A stretch of 64,000 nt of DNA from Janthinobacterium sp. 61 (GTDB lineage: Bacteria > Pseudomonadota > Gammaproteobacteria > Burkholderiales > Burkholderiaceae_D), in contig NZ_PJMQ01000001.1 of assembly GCF_002846335.1 (NCBI RefSeq), positions 2,356,001 through 2,420,000 on the forward strand, given 5' to 3'. The notes under the pieces are model-generated. The model ran no database searches. It saw nothing but the letters and a program-made list of their open reading frames with translations, and had not been told where the DNA came from. Below, in pieces: positions 29,324 to 40,114 of the stretch (positions are counted from its first letter, which is position 1; the number at the start of each line of letters is the position of its first letter). The position numbers were made by a program, and so were the translations under genes.

Positions 29324-29854
29324 TCACAGCCGCTGCTGCAAGTACCGGCACAGGCGCTCGACCGATTCTTGCAGCGCCAGCACCTCGGTGTCGAGGCTCA
29401 GGGCGGGCGACAGCGGCGTCTCGTAGGGAGCGGAAACGCCCGTGAATTGCGCGATCTGGCCCGCGCGCGCCTGCGCATACAGGCCTTTCGGGTCACGCGC
29501 CTCACACTCGGCCAGCGGCGTGCTGACATGGACTTCGATGAAATGCGCCGCGCCGATGATGTCGGCGGCCATGGCCCGGTCGGCGCGGTACGGCGAAATG
29601 AAGGCGGCGATGACGATCAGACCGACCTCGTTCATCAGGCGCGCCACTTCGGCCGTACGGCGGATGTTTTCATGCCGGTCTTGCGGCGTAAAGCCCAGGT
29701 CGCGGTTCAAGCCATGGCGCAGCTGGTCGCCGTCGAGCAGCGCCACGGCGCGGCCCTGCGCCTTGAGCGCTTGCCCCAGCGCCAGCGCGATGCTGGTCTT
29801 GCCGGCGCCGCTCAAGCCCGTCAGCCAGACCGTGGGGTGTTGTGCTGCTGTCAT
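29324..29854 (-). CDS. cysC: Adenylylsulfate (APS) kinase
   Basis: The 176-residue P-loop kinase phosphorylates adenosine 5'-phosphosulfate to PAPS. Walker A is WLTGLSGAGKTSIALALGQA, followed by LLDGDQLRHGLNRDLGFTP and the conserved lid/APS segment RHENIRRTAEVARLMNEVG. The family stretch FIEVHVSTPLAECEARDPKG is intact. The ATG at 29854 is used; a GTG one codon earlier is possible, and GGAGAGG lies just upstream. No cysDN sulfurylase is adjacent. It sits between nasA and a diguanylate cyclase. PAPS could serve assimilation or sulfation; the sequence does not say which. Confidence 0.92.
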   Translation of the reverse strand: MTAAQHPTVWLTGLSGAGKTSIALALGQALKAQGRAVALLDGDQLRHGLNRDLGFTPQDRHENIRRTAEVARLMNEVGLIVIAAFISPYRADRAMAADIIGAAHFIEVHVSTPLAECEARDPKGLYAQARAGQIAQFTGVSAPYETPLSPALSLDTEVLALQESVERLCRYLQQRL

Positions 29855-29916
29855 CACACTGCCTCTCCATTATAGAGCTGGCAATATAACAAAGCCGTGC
29901 CGGAAAGGACAGATTT

Positions 29917-32586
29917 TCAGGCCGCGCTGCGCGCCTCAAGCAGCAACTGTCGTATCTCCGGCACGCAGGAGCCGCAATTGCCGCCCGCCTTGACGCAGGC
30001 CGTCACCTGCGCCGTCGTCGTCAGTTTTTGATCCTGGATGGCGGCGCAAATGGTGTTGCGCCCCACCCCAAAGCACGAGCACACGGTGGGGCCGGCGTCG
30101 ACGCTCTTGCCGATGGGCTGGCCCAGCAGCACACCGGCGCGATCCGCCGCATCCATTTGCGCGTGCGCAAACAGGCCCGCCAGCCAGCTGCGCGACGGCA
30201 GGTCGGGACGGGGCGAGACATACACGCACTGCGCGATGCGCCCTTCGTCCAGGTGCACGGCGCGGTACACGCCGGCGCTGGCGTCCGCATAATCGAGCCA
30301 GTCGGCGTTGTCGTCCGAGACGCCGAGCAGTGCGCGCGCCCATACGCCCAGGTCGGCAATGCGCTGGCGGCCCGCCAGCTCGTAGCGCAGGAATTGTTCG
30401 CCCTGGATGCGCGTCCAGTGCGCCACGCCGTCAAGGTTCAGGGGCGTGCGGCTCAGGACAAACGCATGCCAGTGCACGCGGAACTGCTCGATGCGCACGG
30501 GCGTGTGCTTGAACTCTGGTTCGCCCGAGACGGGATCGACCACCGGATTGACGACGGCGCCCACGCGCGCGTCGGAGGCATTCGCGTCGCTCCAGTGTAT
30601 CGGCACGAACACCTGGCCGCGCGCGATGCCGCCACCATGCACGACGCGCGCCACCATCGCGCCCCAGGCACTGGAAACGCGTGCCAGCTCGCCTTCGCGC
30701 ACGCTGTACAGCAGCGCATCCTGTGGGTGGATGTCGATGAAGGCTTCGGCGACGTGACCCGACAGCTTGGCCGCCTTGCCCGTGCGTGTCATCGTATGCC
30801 ACTGGTCGCGCACCCTGCCCGTATTCAAGATGAGTGGATAGTCCTCGTCGGGCATATTATGCGGCGCGCGCGGCGCCGTGGGCACGAAGCGCGCACGCCC
30901 GTCCGCATGCGCGAAGCGGCCGTCGCCGAACAGGCGCGCCCGGCCCTGCGGCCATTGCTGCGGCACCAGGGCGTCGTATTGCGCCGCATCAAGGTTGTCC
31001 AGGCCCGCCAGGTTGAACAGGCGCGCCGTTTCTGACGCGTTGCGGAAGGTGGACAGGCGCGCGTGTTCGTCGAAGATGGCCTGCGGCGAGGTGAAATCGA
31101 AGCCTGCGTAGCCCATGCGCGTGGCCACGTCGCACAGCACCTGCCAGTCGGCGCGCGCCTCGCCGGGCGCCGGCAAAAAAGCGCGCTGGCGCGAGATGCG
31201 CCGCTCGGAGTTCGTCACCGTGCCATCCTTCTCGCCCCAGCCCAGGGCCGGCAGCAGCACGTCGGCATACGCATTCGTGTCCGATTCGGCGCTGATGTCC
31301 GACACCACGACCAGTTCGCATTGATCCAGCGCGCGGCGCACCTGCTCGGCGTCCGGCATGCTCACCAGCGGATTGGTGGCGATGATCCACACGGCTTTCA
31401 CCTTGCCCGATTCGATCGCGTGGAACAGTTCCACGGCTTTCAAGCCAGGTTTGCCGGCGATGCGGGGAGAGTCCCAGAACGTTTGCACGGTGTCACGGTG
31501 CAACGGGTTGTCCAGCTCCAGGTGCGCCGCCAGCATGTTGGCCAGGCCCCCTACCTCACGCCCGCCCATGGCGTTCGGCTGCCCCGTCAGGGAAAACGGC
31601 CCCATGCCGGGCTGGCCGATGCGGCCCGTCGCCAGGTGGCAGTTGATGATGCTGTTGACCTTGTCCGTGCCGGAGGAGGACTGGTTTACGCCCTGCGAAA
31701 AGGCCGTGACGACCTTGCGCGTGGCGGCAAAGGCCTGGTAAAACGCCAGCAAGGCCTGCGGGTCGACCTTGCAGATGCGCGCCACCTGCAGCGGGTCGCC
31801 GCACTCCACATGCGCGGCGGCCAGCGCCTCATCGAGACCGCGGCTGTGCCGCGTGACGAAAGCGTCGTCGATCACGCCTTCTTTCGCCAGGTGGCACAGC
31901 AAGCCATTGAACAGCCATACGTCAGTGCCTGGCTTCACGGGCAGGTGCAAATCGGCCAGCTCGCACGTGGCCGTGCGGCGCGGGTCGATCACCACCAGTT
32001 TGACGCCTGGCCGGCTTTCCTTGAGGCGCGCGATGCGCTGGAACAGGATCGGGTGGCACCAGGCCGTGTTCGAGCCCACCAGCACCACCATGTCGGCCAG
32101 TTCCAGGTCTTCATAGCAGCCCGGCACGATATCCTCGCCAAACGCGCGCTTGTGGCCCGCCACGGCCGACGACATGCACAGGCGCGAATTGGTGTCGATA
32201 TTCGCGCTGCCCACATAGCCTTTCATGAATTTGTTGGCGATGTAATAGTCTTCCGTCAGCAGCTGGCCCGAGACATACAGGGCCACGGCGTCAGGCCCGT
32301 GTGCATCGATGATGGCGCGCAAGCCGCCAGCCACCTGATCCAGCGCAGCATCCCATGAAGCGCGCTGCAGGACGCCATCGACGCGCACCTGTGGAGTCAG
32401 CAGGCGCTTGTCGAGGCCCAAGGTGTCGCCCAGCGCCGAGCCTTTCACGCACAGGCGCCCCAGGTTGGCGGGATGGCTGATATCGCCGGCGATGCGGAGG
32501 GCGCCGTCGGGCAGGCGTATCGCTTCCACGCCGCAGCCGACGCCGCAGTACGGGCAAGTGGTTTTTACGGGCGTGCACGTGGTCAT
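29917..32586 (-). CDS. nasA: Assimilatory nitrate reductase, catalytic subunit with C-terminal BFD domain
   Basis: This 889-residue bis-MGD molybdoenzyme reduces nitrate to nitrite in the cytosol. The N-terminal [4Fe-4S] ligands are CPYCGVGCGVE and a later Cys in GRLCVKGSALG. Mo-cofactor domain stretches include NTNSRLCMSSAVAGHKRAFG and TGQPNAMGGREVGGLANML. No twin-arginine signal is present, consistent with assimilation. The C-terminal ~60 residues form a BFD-like [2Fe-2S] domain (CSCFGVGRNTIC; GGNCGSCVPEI), the electron entry point in the Klebsiella-type NasA. The ATG at 32586 (MTTCTP) gives the normal N-terminus. It is the last gene of the nitrate operon, 22 bp after the FAD oxidoreductase. 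Confidence 0.95.
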   Translation of the reverse strand: MTTCTPVKTTCPYCGVGCGVEAIRLPDGALRIAGDISHPANLGRLCVKGSALGDTLGLDKRLLTPQVRVDGVLQRASWDAALDQVAGGLRAIIDAHGPDAVALYVSGQLLTEDYYIANKFMKGYVGSANIDTNSRLCMSSAVAGHKRAFGEDIVPGCYEDLELADMVVLVGSNTAWCHPILFQRIARLKESRPGVKLVVIDPRRTATCELADLHLPVKPGTDVWLFNGLLCHLAKEGVIDDAFVTRHSRGLDEALAAAHVECGDPLQVARICKVDPQALLAFYQAFAATRKVVTAFSQGVNQSSSGTDKVNSIINCHLATGRIGQPGMGPFSLTGQPNAMGGREVGGLANMLAAHLELDNPLHRDTVQTFWDSPRIAGKPGLKAVELFHAIESGKVKAVWIIATNPLVSMPDAEQVRRALDQCELVVVSDISAESDTNAYADVLLPALGWGEKDGTVTNSERRISRQRAFLPAPGEARADWQVLCDVATRMGYAGFDFTSPQAIFDEHARLSTFRNASETARLFNLAGLDNLDAAQYDALVPQQWPQGRARLFGDGRFAHADGRARFVPTAPRAPHNMPDEDYPLILNTGRVRDQWHTMTRTGKAAKLSGHVAEAFIDIHPQDALLYSVREGELARVSSAWGAMVARVVHGGGIARGQVFVPIHWSDANASDARVGAVVNPVVDPVSGEPEFKHTPVRIEQFRVHWHAFVLSRTPLNLDGVAHWTRIQGEQFLRYELAGRQRIADLGVWARALLGVSDDNADWLDYADASAGVYRAVHLDEGRIAQCVYVSPRPDLPSRSWLAGLFAHAQMDAADRAGVLLGQPIGKSVDAGPTVCSCFGVGRNTICAAIQDQKLTTTAQVTACVKAGGNCGSCVPEIRQLLLEARSAA

Positions 32587-32608
32587 GGGCGTATCCTGTT
32601 GGTCGCTG

Positions 32609-33847
32609 TCAGGCGGCCTGGCCGCACAGGGCCTGGCCAAACAATAAATGGGAGCGCAACTGGCTGATGTCGCGGCGCTGCTGGATCAGGTCGAAATACC
32701 AGGGACCGTCCTGTACCTCGCCATACAGCACGGCGCCCACCAGGCGGTTGCCCTGCACCACCAGGCGCTTGTAGACACCGCGGCGCGGATCGCGCAGCAC
32801 CAGGTCTTCGCTGCCCTCGCCGCCGATGATGTCGCCGGCCGAATACAGGTCGATGCCCGTCACTTTCAATTTGGTGGCGCTGGCCTGCTGCACGTAGCGC
32901 CGGTGCCCGGCGCCAGCGAGGTGCGCGCCGCACACGCGCGCCTGCTCCCAGATGGGCGCCACCAGGCCGAAGGTGGCGCGGCGGTGCTGCACGCATTCGC
33001 CCACGGCGTACACGCGCGGGTCATAGCTTTGCAGACAGTCGTCGACGACGATGGCCCGTTCGCAGTGCAGGCCGGCAGCTTGCGCCAGGGCGATATTGGG
33101 GCGCACACCGGCCGTCATCACCACCAGGTCGGCGGGAATGCTGCTGCCGTCAAGAAAACGCACGCTTTCCACCCGCTCGCGGCCCGTGATCTCGGCGGTC
33201 TGCGCCTGCATCAGGAAACGCAGGCCGCGGGCCTCCAGCGCCGATTTCAACAACATCGATGCGGGCGCATCGAGCTGCTGGTTCATCAGGGCGCCGCTCA
33301 TGTGCACGACGGTGACGTCCATGCCCTGGCGCTGCAAGCCGTTGGCCGCTTCCAGTCCCAGCAAGCCGCCGCCGATGACCACCGCATGGCGGTGCGTGCG
33401 CGCCGCCTGCAGCATGGTGTCGACATCGCTGATGTCGCGAAAACCGATCACGCCTGGCAGCGCGTGGCCCGGCACGGGCACGATGAACGGCGTCGACCCG
33501 GTGGCCAGCAGCAGGCGGTCATAAGGCACCTCGATGCCCGACTGCGCCTCCACCTTGCGCGCCTGGCGGTCGATGCGCACAACGGGGTCGCCCGCGTGCA
33601 AGGTGATGCCGTGCTGCGCATACCAGGCGCGCGTGTGAAGCATGATGTCGTCCACCGTCTTTTCACCGGCGAGCACCGGGGAGAGCAAAATGCGGTTGTA
33701 ATTGCCATGCGGCTCGGCGCCGAACACGGTGATGTCGTACAGGTCAGGCGCAAGTTTCAACAGCTCCTCGACCGTGCGCATGCCAGCCATGCCGTTGCCG
33801 ACTACCACGAGCGAGGGGCGCGCAGTTGCCTTGGCTGGCGGGTTCAC
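32609..33847 (-). CDS. NAD(P)/FAD-dependent oxidoreductase, probable nitrate-reductase electron donor
   Basis: The 412-residue pyridine-nucleotide-disulfide-type flavoprotein has an FAD loop LVVVGNGMAGMRTVEELLKL, an NAD loop HAVVIGGGLLGLEAANGLQR, and the C-terminal FAD contact DPRVYAVGECVQHRR. It resembles the N-terminal half of NirB and the NasB/NasC reductases that pass NAD(P)H electrons to assimilatory nitrate reductase. It lacks a BFD domain, which NasA itself carries. The start is GTG at 33847, overlapping the nirD stop (GTGA), so it is coupled to nirD. Its place directly before nasA supports the role of NasA reductase. Confidence 0.85.
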   Translation of the reverse strand: MNPPAKATARPSLVVVGNGMAGMRTVEELLKLAPDLYDITVFGAEPHGNYNRILLSPVLAGEKTVDDIMLHTRAWYAQHGITLHAGDPVVRIDRQARKVEAQSGIEVPYDRLLLATGSTPFIVPVPGHALPGVIGFRDISDVDTMLQAARTHRHAVVIGGGLLGLEAANGLQRQGMDVTVVHMSGALMNQQLDAPASMLLKSALEARGLRFLMQAQTAEITGRERVESVRFLDGSSIPADLVVMTAGVRPNIALAQAAGLHCERAIVVDDCLQSYDPRVYAVGECVQHRRATFGLVAPIWEQARVCGAHLAGAGHRRYVQQASATKLKVTGIDLYSAGDIIGGEGSEDLVLRDPRRGVYKRLVVQGNRLVGAVLYGEVQDGPWYFDLIQQRRDISQLRSHLLFGQALCGQAA

Positions 33848-34206
33848 AGGGCCACCCACACCATGTCCGCAAACAAGCGCGCGGGCCAGGATGTGACCGA
33901 ATGCTCGGGCGCTTCCAGGCACTCGCCGCTGGCGAGGTCGAAGTGCTGCTTGTAGATGGGCGAGGCGACAACGACGCGCTCGCCGATGCTGCCCACCAGG
34001 CCACGCGACAGCACGGAAGCGCCCGCGCTCGGGTCGACATTGTCGATGGCGTACACGCGCGGCGCCGCATCGCCGACGCGAAACACGGCCACGTGGCGCC
34101 CACCCAGCAGCGCGCACACGCCCGTGTCGGGCACGATGTCAGCCAAGGGGCAGATGGCCACCCAATTGTCGGCGCTGGCGCCAGTCAGTTCATTCATCGC
34201 ATTCAT
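33844..34206 (-). CDS. nirD: Assimilatory nitrite reductase small subunit
   Basis: The 120-residue Rieske-like protein lacks the usual Cys/His Fe-S ligands, as is normal for NirD. It has WVAICPLADIVPDTGVCALL, then RVYAIDNVDPSAGASVLSRG and SPIYKQHFDLASGECLE. It is the small subunit of the NADH-dependent siroheme nitrite reductase that makes ammonia. Its start is 3 bp after the nirB stop, and its own stop overlaps the next gene's GTG. Confidence 0.93.
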   Translation of the reverse strand: MNAMNELTGASADNWVAICPLADIVPDTGVCALLGGRHVAVFRVGDAAPRVYAIDNVDPSAGASVLSRGLVGSIGERVVVASPIYKQHFDLASGECLEAPEHSVTSWPARLFADMVWVAL

Positions 34207-34209
34207 GCT

Positions 34210-36762
34210 TCACGCCTCCACGGCAAGGATGGGGATCACGGTGCTGCGGCGTTCGATGGGCGTGGCGGGCCGGATCTGGCCCCGCTCTTCCACGAACACC
34301 ACGTTTTCATCGTTTTTCTCGCTATTGACGAAGTGGCGGAAACGCTGGCGCACGGCGGGGTTGGAGATGGCTTCCTTCCACTCGCAGGCATAGGTGTCGA
34401 CCACGTGCTGCATGTCCGCTTCCAGCTCGTGGGCGATGCCCAGGCTGTCGTCGATGACGACGCGCTTGAGGTAATCGAGTCCCCCTTCCAGGTTGTCGCG
34501 CCACACACTGGTGCGCTGCAGGCGGTCGGCCGTGCGCACGTAAAACATCAAAAAGCGGTCGACATAGCGCACCAGGGTGGCTTCATCGAGATCGGACGCC
34601 AGCAATTCCGCGTGGCGCGGCTTCATGCCGCCATTGCCGCACACGTACAGGTTCCAGCCTTTTTCCGTGGCGATCAGGCCGATATCCTTGCCCTGCGCCT
34701 CGGCGCATTCGCGCGTGCAGCCGGAGACGCCGAACTTGATCTTGTGCGGCGTGCGCAAGCCCTTGTAGCGGTTCTCCAGTCGGATGGCGAAACCCACGCT
34801 GTCGGCCACGCCGTAGCGGCACCAGGTGGAACCGACGCACGATTTGACCGTACGCAAGGATTTGCCATAGGCGTGGCCCGATTCGAAGCCGGCCGCGATC
34901 AATTCTTCCCAGATGGCGGGCAACTGGTCCAAGCGGGCGCCGAACAGGTCGACCCGCTGGCCGCCCGTGATCTTGGTGTACAGGCCGTATTTCTTCGCCA
35001 CCATGCCCACGGCGATCAAGCCGTCGGCCGTCACTTCGCCGCCCGGCATGCGCGGCACCACCGAATACGTGCCATCCTTCTGGATATTGCCAAGGAAATA
35101 ATCATTACTATCCTGCAGGCTGGCGTGCACAGGCGAAAGGACGAAATCGTTCCAGCAAGACGCGAGGATATTCGCCGCCACGGGCTTGCACACGTCGCAG
35201 CCCAGGCCCTGTCCATGCGCGGACAGCAGAGCGCCGAAGCTGCGGATTTTGCCCACGCGTACCAGGTGGTGCAATTCCTGGCGCGAATATGCAAAGTGCT
35301 CGCACACGTGATTGTTGACGGCCAGGCCCCGCTTCTGCATTTCCGCCTTCATGATCTGCGTCACCAGTGGCACACAGCCGCCACACGCGGTGCCGGCCTT
35401 GGTGCAGCTTTTGAGGGCGCCGATACTCGTGGCGCCCTCGGCGACAGCGGCGCACAGCGCGCCTTTCGAGACGTCATTGCACGAGCAGATTTGCGCCGAC
35501 TCGGGCAAGGCGTCCACGCCCAGTCCCACCTTTTGCTGGCCGTCGGCCTGCGGCAAGATCAGGAATTCGGGGCATTCCGGCAGCTCGATTTTATTCAGCA
35601 TCATTTGCAGGAGCGTGCCGTATTCGCTGGCGTCGCCCACCATCACGCCACCCAGCAGGTATTTGCCGCAATCGGAGACGACGATCTTCTTGTAGATCTG
35701 CTTGCGCTCGTCCGTGAACTGGTAGGAGCGGCTGCCCGGCGCGTTGCCGTGCGGGTCGCCCAGACTGGCCACGTCCACGCCCATCAACTTGAGCTTGGTG
35801 CTCATGTCGGCGCCCTTGAACGCGGCTTCTCCCTCTTCCTGCAACACATGGCGCGCGCAAATGCGCGCCATGTCATAGCCGGGCGCCACCAGGCCAAAGA
35901 TCAAGCCGCCCCACAGCGCACATTCGCCGATGGCGTAGATATCCGGATCGGACGTGACGCAGCTGTCGTCGATGACGATGCCGCCGCGTGCTCCCACGTC
36001 CAGGCCGCAGGCGCGCGCCAGTTCGTCACGGGGGCGGATGCCGGCCGAAAAGACGATCATGTCCGCTTCCAGGTAACTGCCATCGGCAAACTGCATGCGG
36101 TGCATGGCCGCTACACCGTCGACGATGGCCAGGGTATTCTTTTGCGTGTGCACGGTCACGCCCAGTTCCTCGATCTTGCGGCGCAGGACGCGCGCGCCGC
36201 CTTCATCGACCTGCACGGCCATCAGGCGCGGGGCGAATTCCACCACGTGAGTATCGAGCTTCAAATCGCGCAAGGCCTTCGCGCATTCTAGGCCCAGCAG
36301 CCCGCCGCCGATGACCACGCCCGTGGTGGACTTGGCGCCCCAGGCCAGCATGGCTTCCAGGTCTTCGATGGTGCGATAGACGAAGCAGCCATCGCGCTCC
36401 TTGCCCGGCAGCGGCGGCACGAAAGGCGTGGAGCCGGTGGCGAACACCAGTTTGTCGTAGCGCAATACCTCGCCCGTGCTGGTCGTGACGCTCTTCGCCA
36501 GGCGGTCGATGGAGATGGCCCGCGCATTGAGCTTCAACACGACGTTGTCCTTGTCGAAGAAACCGGGCGCCACCAGCGACAGCTCTTCCGCCGATTTGCC
36601 GCTGAAAAATTCGGACAGGTGCACGCGGTCGTAGGCGGGACGCGCTTCTTCGCACAAGACCGTGACGTGCAGGTGCGGGGCGTCTTCCAATGCCAGTCGT
36701 TCGAGGAACTTATGCCCGACCATGCCATGGCCGAGGACGACGATCTTCAAAGGGTGGTTCAT
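34210..36762 (-). CDS. nirB: NAD(P)H nitrite reductase large subunit
   Basis: The 850-residue siroheme enzyme reduces nitrite to ammonium with NAD(P)H. In order it has an FAD loop (IVVLGHGMVGHKFLERLALE), an NAD loop (VVIGGGLLGLECAKALRDLK), a BFD-like [2Fe-2S] domain (ICSCNDVSKGALC; TACGGCVPLV), and the C-terminal sulfite/nitrite-reductase-like domain with the siroheme/[4Fe-4S] ligands (GVSGCTRECAEAQG, then YVCGNGG). Length is standard. The ATG at 36762 begins MNHPLKIVV; it lies 11 bp after the narK stop, so the genes form one operon driven by the narK leader. Confidence 0.96.
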   Translation of the reverse strand: MNHPLKIVVLGHGMVGHKFLERLALEDAPHLHVTVLCEEARPAYDRVHLSEFFSGKSAEELSLVAPGFFDKDNVVLKLNARAISIDRLAKSVTTSTGEVLRYDKLVFATGSTPFVPPLPGKERDGCFVYRTIEDLEAMLAWGAKSTTGVVIGGGLLGLECAKALRDLKLDTHVVEFAPRLMAVQVDEGGARVLRRKIEELGVTVHTQKNTLAIVDGVAAMHRMQFADGSYLEADMIVFSAGIRPRDELARACGLDVGARGGIVIDDSCVTSDPDIYAIGECALWGGLIFGLVAPGYDMARICARHVLQEEGEAAFKGADMSTKLKLMGVDVASLGDPHGNAPGSRSYQFTDERKQIYKKIVVSDCGKYLLGGVMVGDASEYGTLLQMMLNKIELPECPEFLILPQADGQQKVGLGVDALPESAQICSCNDVSKGALCAAVAEGATSIGALKSCTKAGTACGGCVPLVTQIMKAEMQKRGLAVNNHVCEHFAYSRQELHHLVRVGKIRSFGALLSAHGQGLGCDVCKPVAANILASCWNDFVLSPVHASLQDSNDYFLGNIQKDGTYSVVPRMPGGEVTADGLIAVGMVAKKYGLYTKITGGQRVDLFGARLDQLPAIWEELIAAGFESGHAYGKSLRTVKSCVGSTWCRYGVADSVGFAIRLENRYKGLRTPHKIKFGVSGCTRECAEAQGKDIGLIATEKGWNLYVCGNGGMKPRHAELLASDLDEATLVRYVDRFLMFYVRTADRLQRTSVWRDNLEGGLDYLKRVVIDDSLGIAHELEADMQHVVDTYACEWKEAISNPAVRQRFRHFVNSEKNDENVVFVEERGQIRPATPIERRSTVIPILAVEA

Positions 36763-36773
36763 GCTTGCTCTCC

Positions 36774-38081
36774 TCAGGCCGCAGCCATGTTCGGTTCCGC
36801 CGCCAGCCCCGTAAATCGGGCGGCGATGGCGCACAAGGCCGAGATCACCACCAGCGCGCTGAGGATGATCAGGGTCTGGCGAATGTCGCCCGTGCCCTTC
36901 ATCAGGAAACCGGCCGCCACGGCGCCCACATTGCCGCCCGCGCCGATGATGCCGGCCACGCCGCCGAGCGCACGGCTATCAATAAAGGGCACCAGCGCGT
37001 AGGTGGCGCCGCAAGCCATGTGGGTGAACAAGCCGAAGACCAGCATGGCGATGACGGCGTACGTGACGCTGTCGACTTTCGCAAACCACAGCAAACCCAC
37101 GCCTTCGCCTATCATCAGGATGAACAGCAGGGTCACGCGGCTGTTCAGGTTGCCGCGCAGGGCCAATTTATCGGACATCCAGCCACCCAGGGCACGGGCA
37201 AACAGGGCCAGCAAGCCGAAGCTGCCGGCGGCCAGGCCTGCGGATTTCAACGACAGGCCGAAATGGTCGACGTAGTACACGGCGGCGATGTTGTGGATGA
37301 AAATCTCGATGCCGAAGCAGGCGCCGTAGGTGACGAACAGCAGCCACACGCGGTAGTTGGAACTGGCGGCCTTGAAGCTGTCCCAGCCCCCGCTTTTGCC
37401 ACCACCTTTGCCACCCTCGATGGCCGCGCCAGCCTTGCGCAAGTCTGAATAATTTCCTTCCGGGCAATCCTGCGTATAGCGCCAGTAGAGGACAGCCATC
37501 AGCAGCATCAGCACGCCCGGCACCAGCAGGGCGATGCGCCAGCCCAGCGACTCGGACACGCCCAGCATCAGCACGGCGCCGAGCAGCAGCGGCATCAGCG
37601 CCTGCGCCGCGCCGCCGCCCGCATTGCCCCAGCCGGCGGCGGCCGCATTCGCCGTCCCCACCACGCGGGGCGCAAACATCACGGAGGTGTGATATTGCGT
37701 GATGACAAAGCTGGCACCGACGGCGCCGATGCCCAGGCGGAAGAACAGAAAGCTTTCATAACTTTGCGAAGCGGCTACGCCCAGCACGGGAATGGCGCCC
37801 AGCAGCAGCAAGCCCGTGTACGTCTTGCGCGGGCCGTAGCGGTCGCACAATGGCCCCACGATCAGGCGCACGAGGATGGTGATGGCGACGGCCGCGATAT
37901 TGATATTGGCCACTTGCGCCAGGGAAAGGCCGAACTCGCCCTTGATGACCGGCATCAGCGGTGCGCAGGCGAACCAGGCGAAGAAACACACGAAAAATGC
38001 CATCCACGTCAGGTGGAATGCCCGCATGGGCGGGGTGGCGAGGGAGAAGAGCGCGATGCGCGTTGCTTTTTGGCTGGCCAT
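36774..38081 (-). CDS. narK: Nitrate/nitrite transporter of the MFS (NarK/NasA type)
   Basis: The 435-residue MFS protein has twelve predicted helices. It carries the nitrate-porter patterns of NarK: the substrate-site Arg region AITILVRLIVGPLCDRYGPR, the glycine-rich nitrate signature AAAAGWGNAGGGAAQALMPL in TM5, and GVAGIIGAGGNVGAVAAGFL in TM11. It is predicted to bring nitrate (and perhaps nitrite) into the cytosol. The ATG at 38081 (MASQKATR) is used; the open frame upstream runs through the leader hairpins and is not coding. It is the first gene of the five-gene operon and is preceded by the sigma-54 promoter and antitermination leader described separately. Confidence 0.93.
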   Translation of the reverse strand: MASQKATRIALFSLATPPMRAFHLTWMAFFVCFFAWFACAPLMPVIKGEFGLSLAQVANINIAAVAITILVRLIVGPLCDRYGPRKTYTGLLLLGAIPVLGVAASQSYESFLFFRLGIGAVGASFVITQYHTSVMFAPRVVGTANAAAAGWGNAGGGAAQALMPLLLGAVLMLGVSESLGWRIALLVPGVLMLLMAVLYWRYTQDCPEGNYSDLRKAGAAIEGGKGGGKSGGWDSFKAASSNYRVWLLFVTYGACFGIEIFIHNIAAVYYVDHFGLSLKSAGLAAGSFGLLALFARALGGWMSDKLALRGNLNSRVTLLFILMIGEGVGLLWFAKVDSVTYAVIAMLVFGLFTHMACGATYALVPFIDSRALGGVAGIIGAGGNVGAVAAGFLMKGTGDIRQTLIILSALVVISALCAIAARFTGLAAEPNMAAA

Positions 38082-38108: not shown

Positions 38109-38165
38109 AAAACAAAACGGCGCCCGCCCTCGCCGATGATAAAAATCAGCCTGGGCGGACGCCGT
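38109..38165 (-). terminator. Leader terminator (attenuator) upstream of narK
   Basis: On the minus strand, arms ACGGCGTCCGCCC (38165-38153) and GGGCGGGCGCCGT (38129-38117) form a 13-bp stem with a single G-U pair around a 23-nt loop. They are followed by TTTTGTTTT. It lies 28 bp before the narK ATG, so it would stop transcription before the operon unless disrupted. Its 5' arm shares bases with the second hexaloop hairpin. Confidence 0.82.
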
Positions 38166-38190
38166 TGTCCATGTGGTCCCACGTTGGACC
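38156..38190 (-). promoter_or_regulatory. Dual-hexaloop ANTAR target in the narK leader
   Basis: Hairpin P1 (38190-38175) is GGTCC, loop AACGTG, GGACC. Hairpin P2 (38171-38156) is TGGAC, loop AACGGC, GTCCG. A 3-nt linker separates them. Both loops are six bases long with A at position 1 and G at position 4, the established signature of RNAs bound by ANTAR-domain antiterminators such as NasR and NasT. P2 and the terminator stem cannot form at once, so ANTAR binding should favour read-through. The regulator gene is not in this window. Confidence 0.8.
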
Positions 38191-38238
38191 GTTGTGCGTT
38201 TATTCAGGGGATCGCCGTTGATCCGTATCTCTTGTGTA

Positions 38239-38253
38239 GCAAGCGCCGTGCCA
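38239..38253 (-). promoter_or_regulatory. Sigma-54 promoter of the nitrate assimilation operon
   Basis: The minus strand reads TGGCAC, GGCGC, TTGC (38253-38239), an exact match to the -24/-12 consensus with correct 5-bp spacing, followed by T. Initiation about 12 bp downstream would give a leader near 145 nt that contains both hexaloops and the terminator. Confidence 0.8.
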
Positions 38254-38404: not shown

Positions 38405-40114
38405 ATGGTCAATACCCTGCGATGCCGATTTTGCTCACCTTGGCCACCCTGGCCGCCATGCCTTGCTTGCATGTGCGCTGGCGTGTTGCTCCTTACATGG
38501 AGCAACAGTGCTGCCGCGCACGAGCCTAAGGAACACAGCGAACTCGACGCCACCGTCGTCGCACACTTCCGCGCCGCAGCCGGTGCGCGGACAAGCCCGG
38601 CGCACACATTTATCGTGTGGCTCGCCTATCCCGACGAGGGCCGCACCCATGCGGTGCGCTGGACATTGACACTGTCCGGCCCCGGCCCGCAAGGCGCCAT
38701 GCAGAGGCGCTGGTCAGGCACACATGAGGTGGGCGCTGGCGGCCAGAACGTCACCCTGCCCTGGGATGGCCGCGCCGACGCCGATGCGCGCGAACGGCGC
38801 GCGCGGGTTCCTGACGGCTTGTACCAGCTGCGCCTGCTGGCCGTGGCAGACGCCGGCACGCCGCAGCAGACGCAGGTGGAGCAGCAATGGCACATCCAGC
38901 TGCTGCGGGGGCGTGGCACGGCGCCCAGGGTGCCCGCCTTCCAGGCCGCCCAGCAACAACTGCCCGGCCTGGATGGCCAGGTGGACTACCGCATCGTCTA
39001 CGCCAACCTGCACAGCCAGACGCGCCACAGCGACGGCGGCGCGGCGCTCGACGCCTGCCATGGCGCACAAGACCCGCAAACGGCGCCCTACGGTCCCATC
39101 GATGCCTACCAATATGCGCAGCAACATGGGCTAGACGCGCTGCTGACGTCCGAGCACAACCATATGTATGACGGTTCTGACGGCACGAATGGCGCTGCCA
39201 CCGCTGCCGAAGCGACAGCTCTGTACCAGACGGGACTGGCCGAAGCGGCCGCCTACACGGCTGCCCACCCCGGCTTCCTCGCCCTGTACGGCATGGAATG
39301 GGGCGTCATCAACAAGGGTGGCCACCTGAATATCTTCAATAGCGAGCAGTTGCTGGGATGGGAAAGAAATGCCAGCGGCGAACTGCTGGCTGACGTGGAA
39401 ACGCCGAAGGGCGATTATGCGGGCCTGTACGCGCTGATGCGCGAACGGGGCTGGATAGCCCAATTCAACCATCCGGCGCAAGCGGGCCAGTTTCTCGTCA
39501 ACGGCCAGCCGCTGGGCTACACACCCGATGGCGACGCGGCCATGGTGCTGTGCGAAGTGATGAATACCTCCGCCTTTTCCACCAGCGACAAGGAATCGGA
39601 GACGCGGCGCAGCAATTACGAGGCCGCTTGCAACCGGGCCCTGGCGGCCGGCTACCACGTGGCTTTCAGCAGCAATCAGGACAACCACTGCGCCAACTGG
39701 GGCGCGTCGTATGGCAACCGTACGGCCGTGCTGGTGGCCAGCCCGGTCGCCGGCATGCCCTTGACACGCGACAGTTTCCTGGAGGCACTGCGCGCGCGCC
39801 GCGTTTTCGCCACCATGGACAAACATGCGCAGCTGCTGTTGACGGCCAATGGCAAGTTGATGGGCGAGCGTTTCGACAACCACGGCCCCTTGCAGCTGGT
39901 CACCCATTTCAGCAACAGGGCGGGGCGGCAAGCGGCCGCCGTCGCGGTTTTCCACGGCGTGCCGGGCGGCAATGGGTCCGTCACCCAACTGTCGGACCAG
40001 GCTGACATCACCCTCACGCCCGCGCCCGGCCCGCATTTCTATTATGCGCGGCTGACGCAGGATGACGGCAACATCATCTGGTCCGCGCCCGTGTGGGTGA
40101 ATCAGTTGCCGTGA
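38405..40114 (+). CDS. Secreted CehA/McbA-like PHP-domain metallohydrolase
   Basis: The 569-residue protein has an N-terminal signal peptide (Cys/Trp-rich leader, then AGVLLLTWSNSAAAH). About 190 residues of beta-sandwich-like sequence follow, then a PHP-type metal-binding domain: NLHSQTRHSDGG, LLTSEHNHMYDGSD, MEWGVINKGGHLNIF, IAQFNHPAQAG and SSNQDNHCANWG. These His/Asp clusters match the CehA/McbA family, whose characterised members hydrolyse esters or carbamates. The substrate here is unknown. It is transcribed away from the nitrate operon with its own short upstream region and ends 8 bp before the convergent LysR stop. No partner gene is evident. Confidence 0.75.
   Translation: MVNTLRCRFCSPWPPWPPCLACMCAGVLLLTWSNSAAAHEPKEHSELDATVVAHFRAAAGARTSPAHTFIVWLAYPDEGRTHAVRWTLTLSGPGPQGAMQRRWSGTHEVGAGGQNVTLPWDGRADADARERRARVPDGLYQLRLLAVADAGTPQQTQVEQQWHIQLLRGRGTAPRVPAFQAAQQQLPGLDGQVDYRIVYANLHSQTRHSDGGAALDACHGAQDPQTAPYGPIDAYQYAQQHGLDALLTSEHNHMYDGSDGTNGAATAAEATALYQTGLAEAAAYTAAHPGFLALYGMEWGVINKGGHLNIFNSEQLLGWERNASGELLADVETPKGDYAGLYALMRERGWIAQFNHPAQAGQFLVNGQPLGYTPDGDAAMVLCEVMNTSAFSTSDKESETRRSNYEAACNRALAAGYHVAFSSNQDNHCANWGASYGNRTAVLVASPVAGMPLTRDSFLEALRARRVFATMDKHAQLLLTANGKLMGERFDNHGPLQLVTHFSNRAGRQAAAVAVFHGVPGGNGSVTQLSDQADITLTPAPGPHFYYARLTQDDGNIIWSAPVWVNQLP

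Follow-up and report, generated by a model that had tools for sequence, protein, structure and literature searches.

The window analysed here, a 64,000-nt stretch of the Janthinobacterium sp. 61 genome, carries a leader that is followed in order by narK, nirB, nirD, an FAD oxidoreductase gene, and nasA, which raises the question of how this leader might govern expression of the nitrate genes behind it. Nitrate genes are already known to come under ANTAR control, and in 2012 RNAs of the ANTAR type were predicted to precede nitrate and nitrite transporters (PMC3369931). A first-pass annotation of the window had read the leader as a dual-hexaloop antitermination signal served by an ANTAR regulator of the NasR or NasT type. 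Judging from the sequence comparisons presented here, it is highly probable that the narK leader is a nitrate-responsive, NasT-controlled antitermination leader that contains three hexaloop hairpins and lies behind a sigma-54-type promoter (Table 1). The initial reading is supported as largely right, with additions.

Table 1. Features of the narK leader, the downstream genes, and nasT (window positions unless a genome position is given)
Feature	Position	Strand	Sequence, match, or prediction
Sigma-54-type (-24/-12) promoter box	38239-38253	minus	TGGCACGGCGCTTGC (TGGCAC-N5-TTGC); sequence
HP1	38209-38224 (loop 38214-38219)	minus	GGATC[AACGGC]GATCC; 5-bp stem; -5.3 kcal/mol
HP2 (middle hairpin)	38175-38190 (loop 38180-38185)	minus	GGTCC[AACGTG]GGACC; 5-bp stem; -7.2 kcal/mol
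HP3 (antiterminator hairpin)	38157-38170 (loop 38161-38166)	minus	GGAC[AACGGC]GTCC; 4-bp stem; -5.5 kcal/mol
Intrinsic terminator stem	38116-38166 (5' arm 38153-38166, 3' arm 38116-38129)	minus	Predicted fold; 14 pairs; -38.7 kcal/mol
U tract	38109-38117	minus	TTTTGTTTT; sequence
narK, nitrate/nitrite MFS transporter	36774-38081	minus	TIGR00886, 1.7e-88, 297.2 bits, just below the cut-off of 311.7
nirB, nitrite reductase large subunit	34210-36834 as listed; true start probably near the narK end	minus	TIGR02374, above cut-off
nirD, nitrite reductase small subunit	33844-34206	minus	TIGR02378, above cut-off
FAD/NAD-dependent oxidoreductase	32609-34117 as listed; start uncertain	minus	Pyr_redox_2
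nasA-type assimilatory nitrate reductase	29917-32640	minus	C-terminal Fer2_BFD; under the NasC and NasA equivalog cut-offs
nasT (ANTAR)	G000 C1:800415-801065		1.6 Mb from the narK operon; next gene NMT1_2

The sigma-54 consensus consists of GG at -24 and GC at -12 with the correct spacing, and the box upstream of narK agrees with it in all three respects. The predicted transcript start lies near 38227 on the minus strand, and HP1 occupies the 5' end of the predicted transcript, just after the promoter. Both the promoter and HP1 had been missed in the first-pass annotation, so its hexaloop leader stands but the word dual does not; the two adjacent hairpins on which it was based, with loops AACGTG and AACGGC, are present on the minus strand as HP2 and HP3. 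ANTAR-target RNAs have at least two hexaloop hairpins with A at loop position 1 and G at position 4 (A1/G4) and a C:G closing pair, the last of which overlaps and excludes an intrinsic terminator. The narK leader has three such hairpins, and in the predicted folds the HP3 loop and 3' arm are contained in the terminator 5' arm, such that the two structures are mutually exclusive, as had been proposed for the second of the original hexaloops. The stem and U tract described before narK were also confirmed, except that 14 rather than 13 pairs are predicted for the stem; 27 nt separate the end of the U tract (38109) from the narK ATG (38081). From the predicted energies, the terminator should win unless HP3 is held.

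An arrangement of this kind rarely arises by chance. When the 146-nt leader was dinucleotide-shuffled 100,000 times, only 84 of the shuffles contained two hexaloops and 2 contained three (A1 and G4, on a Watson-Crick stem of 4 bp or more), and the fold z-score of a 141-nt stretch was -5.4, with none of 200 shuffles as good. The narK leader is also the only place on either strand of the window with three hexaloops within 90 nt. It should be noted that the genome contains 16 copies of the single hairpin pattern GACAAMGRCGTC versus 17 of its reversed control, and thus only tandem hexaloops are informative. Upstream of the leader, an NtrC-like site is weak, matching at 11 of 15 positions in the window, with a mean of 11.0 in 75 relatives versus 9.3 in base shuffles.

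To examine conservation, relatives were chosen by NarK alone: a scan of named genomes was reduced to the best 80 loci, the nearest being Janthinobacterium, and two of these (L152, L176) were without upstream DNA, which left 78 leaders. Under strict rules, three hexaloops, the last of them overlapped by a terminator, were counted in 62 leaders, two hexaloops in 12, and one in 2, and 2 leaders failed the terminator rule, whereas none of the 78 reverse-strand decoys from the same regions had three hexaloops plus terminator. In the leaders scored as having two, the HP2 loop often sits on a mismatched stem. When no stem rule was applied, A1/G4 was found in 77 of 78 HP1 loops, in all 78 HP3 loops, and in 74 of 78 HP2 loops (a tally that includes L202, to which both the strict scan and the alignment described below assign none), while HP2 loop positions 3, 5, and 6 vary. 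Of the 76 leaders scored for a sigma-54-type box, 73 have one at the expected distance.

Covariation was assessed in an alignment (A3) of 52 of the 78 leaders. The 26 excluded were mostly near-duplicates from Janthinobacterium, Herbaspirillum, Duganella, Rugamonas, and Massilia, but also include L196 and four others: L175, with a broken HP3 stem; L184, which fails the terminator rule; L193, which is without HP1; and L204, with a mismatched HP1 stem and a different middle hairpin. Conservation in A3 is concentrated in the promoter, the hexaloop hairpins, and the terminator, and the sigma-54 core columns are invariant. For the hairpins, 90.9% of cells were paired versus 87.4% in shuffles, with 43 double-sided changes versus 15.5. 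HP2, which holds in 48 of the 52 rows, carries most of this covariation, with double-sided changes at 5 of 8 pairs and 90.4% of cells paired; in HP1 every cell is paired and 3 of 5 pairs show double-sided changes. The four HP3 pairs are invariant and consequently uninformative either way. For the terminator, 95.0% of cells were paired versus 89.7%, with 26 double-sided changes versus 7.5, although for two of its five covariation measures some shuffles did as well (29 and 63 of 500). The comparison of homologous narK leaders suggested in the first-pass annotation gave covarying stems with near-invariant A1/G4.

Closer and more distant samples were also inspected. From NarK orthologues in 61 relatives, 30 loci were fetched, all within the genus; one (L033) was without upstream DNA, and the other 29 leaders all show three hexaloops, or three in 28 and two in L034 with a stricter parser that adds terminator and non-overlap rules. 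A further alignment (A2) is a selected set: apart from L106, its leaders were chosen for having the promoter, hexaloops, and terminator. In this set, the 5' hairpin loop violates the A1/G4 rule in L051, L093, L095, and L102, and the 5' hairpin is absent from L097 and L103. A family-level search was run at E up to 1, and as 2 of 14 control genomes also matched, many of its rows are probably due to chance.

The variation among these leaders bears upon the role of HP2. One explanation is that only two hexaloops work, either HP1 and HP3 or HP2 and HP3, with the remaining hairpin serving as a spacer or as protection of the 5' end, in which case this would be an ordinary dual-hexaloop ANTAR leader. 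Relatives with only HP2 and HP3 (L193, L097) and others without the HP2 hexaloop (L195, L202, L206, L209) are consistent with this explanation, which we regard as quite possible, although we lean somewhat against it: a mere spacer would not need A1/G4, yet HP2 retains both bases while its other loop positions vary. In the published EutV model, a dimer binds a recruitment hairpin and then passes to the antitermination hairpin, subject to a spacing limit, and the structure of EutV favors sequential over simultaneous contact with the hexaloops (PMC8934654). The EutX RNA described in the same source has an additional hexaloop beside its dual motif, which gives a third hexaloop some precedent. Our tentative alternative, in which we place distinctly less than even confidence as a combined proposal, is that a NasT dimer loads on HP1 immediately upon its emergence from polymerase and steps to HP2 and then HP3, the extra hairpin overcoming the two-hairpin spacing limit, and that the whole Rfam family RF03032 represents this type of ANTAR switch together with a sigma-54 promoter, rather than a riboswitch. 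The leaders form a natural series (HP1, HP2, and HP3; HP2 and HP3; HP1 and HP3 without the HP2 hexaloop) that could test the successive-contact model directly and thereby bear on the unsettled question of how an ANTAR dimer uses two hexaloops.

The first-pass annotation had also predicted an ANTAR gene elsewhere in the genome, and there are in fact two such loci. Accordingly, neither of the outcomes it had named as counting against it, i.e. a genome lacking ANTAR proteins or relatives keeping neither hexaloops nor terminator, was encountered. One locus, nasT, adjoins an NMT1_2 (PF13379) nitrate-binding protein gene, the arrangement expected of a NasS-NasT pair, and we take the NMT1_2 protein to be NasS; NCBIfam gave no name for either protein. 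In L003:6416-9214, these two genes are followed by a uroporphyrinogen-III C-methyltransferase gene, which lies at a distance from the nir genes and corresponds to a step in siroheme formation on which NirB would depend. In Pfam, NasT matches only ANTAR, and its receiver-like N-terminus is visible only against relatives in the PDB. Its sequence can be aligned with four ANTAR proteins whose structures are known: 6wsh and 1s8n, which are presumably EutV and Rv1626, and 4akk and 1qo0, which we take to be NasR and AmiR. At the EutV RNA-contact positions (from excerpts of PMC8934654, mapped by an apparently constant offset of 2), NasT keeps Tyr, Met, Arg, and Lys, with one Lys replaced by Arg.

Within 37 genomes of the genus, NarK and NasT orthologues were both found in 34, neither in two (G008, 99% complete and with a 35-residue NasT-like fragment, and G014, 82% complete), and NarK without NasT in one (G027, 88% complete). 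In seven of these genomes (G012, G016, G022, G023, G028, G032, G035), nasT precedes narK on the same strand at a distance of 2.2-20.6 kb; in a relative from the family (G092), the order is nasT, NMT1_2 of the NasS type, leader, and narK, directly. The separation of nasT from narK in the genome of the window may thus be derived. Of the two regulator types originally named, these sequence data point to NasS-NasT as most likely and not to NasR. The second ANTAR protein, a receiver-ANTAR encoded beside the thi genes (G000:C1:5204823-5205323), does exceed the Pfam ANTAR cut-off and might in principle be the regulator in place of NasT, but we consider this very improbable because the contact residues Tyr, Met, and Arg that NasT keeps are replaced in it by Phe, Arg, and Gly, respectively, and because a relative of it is retained in G008, where NarK and NasT orthologues are lacking. 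Its gene (L004:5737-6369) directly follows genes for ThiG, Phos_pyr_kin, and TMP-TENI, and similar proteins occur across the genus; the usual RNA-contact residues are absent from the one examined.

Searching Rfam at the gathering score gave no matches in the window. The narK leader scored 22.5 bits (E 0.052) against RF03032 (narK RNA), below the gathering cut-off of 43.2 bits, and since the curated score was not reached we do not assign the site to this family. The five other sub-threshold Rfam matches (weev_FSE on both strands, RUF6-5, SAH, and P11) were set aside, as they involve mostly the terminator stem and are all under the cut-off. By our own reading, the RF03032 consensus resembles the window leader in having a sigma-54-like 5' block and one annotated hairpin with the loop AACGGC, and an unannotated CGAC[AAAGAC]GUCG is found at its 3' end; the window leader has one hairpin more. 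Across 250 genomes of the order, a match at E up to 0.001 was obtained in 28, including 3 above the cut-off. In these leaders a sigma-54-type box is followed by a first hexaloop hairpin and then by a final one that starts the terminator (for example, GGAC[AAAGGC]GTCC), and an automatic parse gave a leader for 24 of the 28 (not for L039, L043, L052, or L062). An alignment of all 28 (A1) showed 54 cells with double-sided changes versus 16.3 in shuffles; its first helix is part of the Rfam search model, such that pairing is partly built in, while the second is independent, and the 3' hairpin is misaligned in some rows (L037, L055, L057, L062). This second helix, equivalent to the HP3 stem, covaries at the order level.

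The genomic context of these matches is consistent with ANTAR control. All 28 genomes contain an ANTAR gene, compared with 97 of the other 222 (Fisher 6.8e-10), which include the window's own genome, as the search loses weak matches. In at least 17 of the 28, the ANTAR domain is encoded on the same strand <600 bp ahead of the match, and in at least 24 it is within 10 kb. A crude rule gave the first downstream ORF for 26 leaders: NMT1_2 nitrate-binding type in 18, NarK/MFS transporter in 3, NirB or NirB-like in 2, NasA-like in 1, and in the remaining 2 an EAL-domain protein (L049) and a response-regulator C-terminus (L038). The dual-hexaloop leader of the RF03032 type before the EAL (c-di-GMP phosphodiesterase) ORF (L049:1501-2877) could reflect a link between nitrate sensing and c-di-GMP. 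A model (R1) built from the 28 leaders with the window excluded found the window site at 48.2 bits (E 1.1e-8), the next in the genome scoring 19.8 bits, and it matched in 48 of 398 phylum genomes, a count that takes in the window's own genome and at least three of the genomes used for training (G059, G092, G207). In two matches from one other family (L235, L240), the ones whose flanks were examined, a NIT-ANTAR gene stands on one side of the leader and an NMT1_2 gene on the other, which is the layout of the proven NasR-nasF switch. Three genomes (G738, G753, G515) have four R1 matches each, suggestive of NasT-type regulons of several operons.

From the leader anatomy, the ANTAR gene association, the downstream genes, and the recovery of the window site by R1, RF03032-type leaders are very probably ANTAR antiterminators, and part of the conserved sequence of the family is probably promoter DNA. 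A protein-free attenuator or nitrate riboswitch, whose hairpins sense the ligand directly, would also account for a conserved structured leader with a terminator related to a cis-regulatory family of unstated ligand, but we judge it highly unlikely given this ANTAR association and the concentration of A3 conservation in promoter, hexaloop hairpins, and terminator. The open-licence literature yielded no RF03032-ANTAR link, three-hexaloop leaders, or stated RF03032 function; within the scope of these searches, both the conserved form with three hexaloops and the assignment made for RF03032 are new. The analysis thus proposes a regulator, and in part a promoter-DNA identity, for an Rfam family.

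The NasT-controlled leader would operate as follows. Under nitrogen limitation, NtrC and sigma-54 would drive transcription from the predicted start. Without nitrate, NasS would hold NasT, the terminator would form, and the transcript would stop before narK. With nitrate or nitrite, NasS would release NasT, as is reported for P. denitrificans (PMC5424462, PMC3795266, excerpts), and NasT would bind the hexaloops as they emerge, HP1 first, with HP2 most likely a further NasT site bridging the long gap between HP1 and HP3. As the HP3 loop and 3' arm are terminator 5' arm sequence, NasT holding HP3 would block the terminator and permit read-through into narK-nirB-nirD-(FAD oxidoreductase)-nasA as one transcript. 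In favor of this reading are a hexaloop triple beyond chance that is kept in NarK-selected relatives with covarying stems; NasT and NasS in the genome, the NarK-NasT co-occurrence in the genus, and the G092 gene order; and the retained NasT contact residues, the R1 match, and the L235/L240 layout. We count against it that in Bradyrhizobium diazoefficiens, where a NasT hairpin is predicted for narK, deleting nasT nevertheless raises narK expression during denitrification (PMC6759348), and that the HP1-HP2 linker is 18 nt, when EutV antitermination was abolished once hexaloops were spaced 20 nt further apart (PMC8934654). The distance to nasT, the missed RF03032 gathering score, the weak NtrC-like site, and the two terminator covariation measures reached by shuffles likewise count against it.

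Among characterized systems, Klebsiella oxytoca NasR-nasF (PMC7496416) shares with the window leader ANTAR antitermination in response to nitrate (probable in the window), tandem A1/G4 hexaloops with a C:G closing pair, and a terminator thereafter, but it employs the one-component NasR (NIT-ANTAR) and two hairpins and targets the nasF operon. The NasS-NasT leaders of Paracoccus nasA and Bradyrhizobium nosR (PMC5424462, PMC6759348, excerpts) have the regulator pair and, presumably, the logic in common with the window, whereas the Paracoccus hairpins HI and HII adjoin nasTS and the window has three hexaloops with nasTS 1.6 Mb away. Enterococcus EutV-eutP likewise has mutually exclusive hexaloop and terminator, and NasT largely keeps the EutV contact residues, but that system responds to ethanolamine via phosphorylated EutV and has two hexaloops. 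Its E. faecalis eut linkers of 5-12 nt (PMC3369931), which is not known to be a general range, compare with 4 nt between HP2 and HP3 and 18 nt between HP1 and HP2 in the window.

Two further ORFs border the nitrate genes. A 569-aa ORF without a Pfam match (38405-40114, plus strand) is divergent from the narK leader, and nasA is followed on its own strand, after ~60 nt, by an APS-kinase-family ORF (29324-29857, minus strand) that is a possible further member of the nitrate operon.
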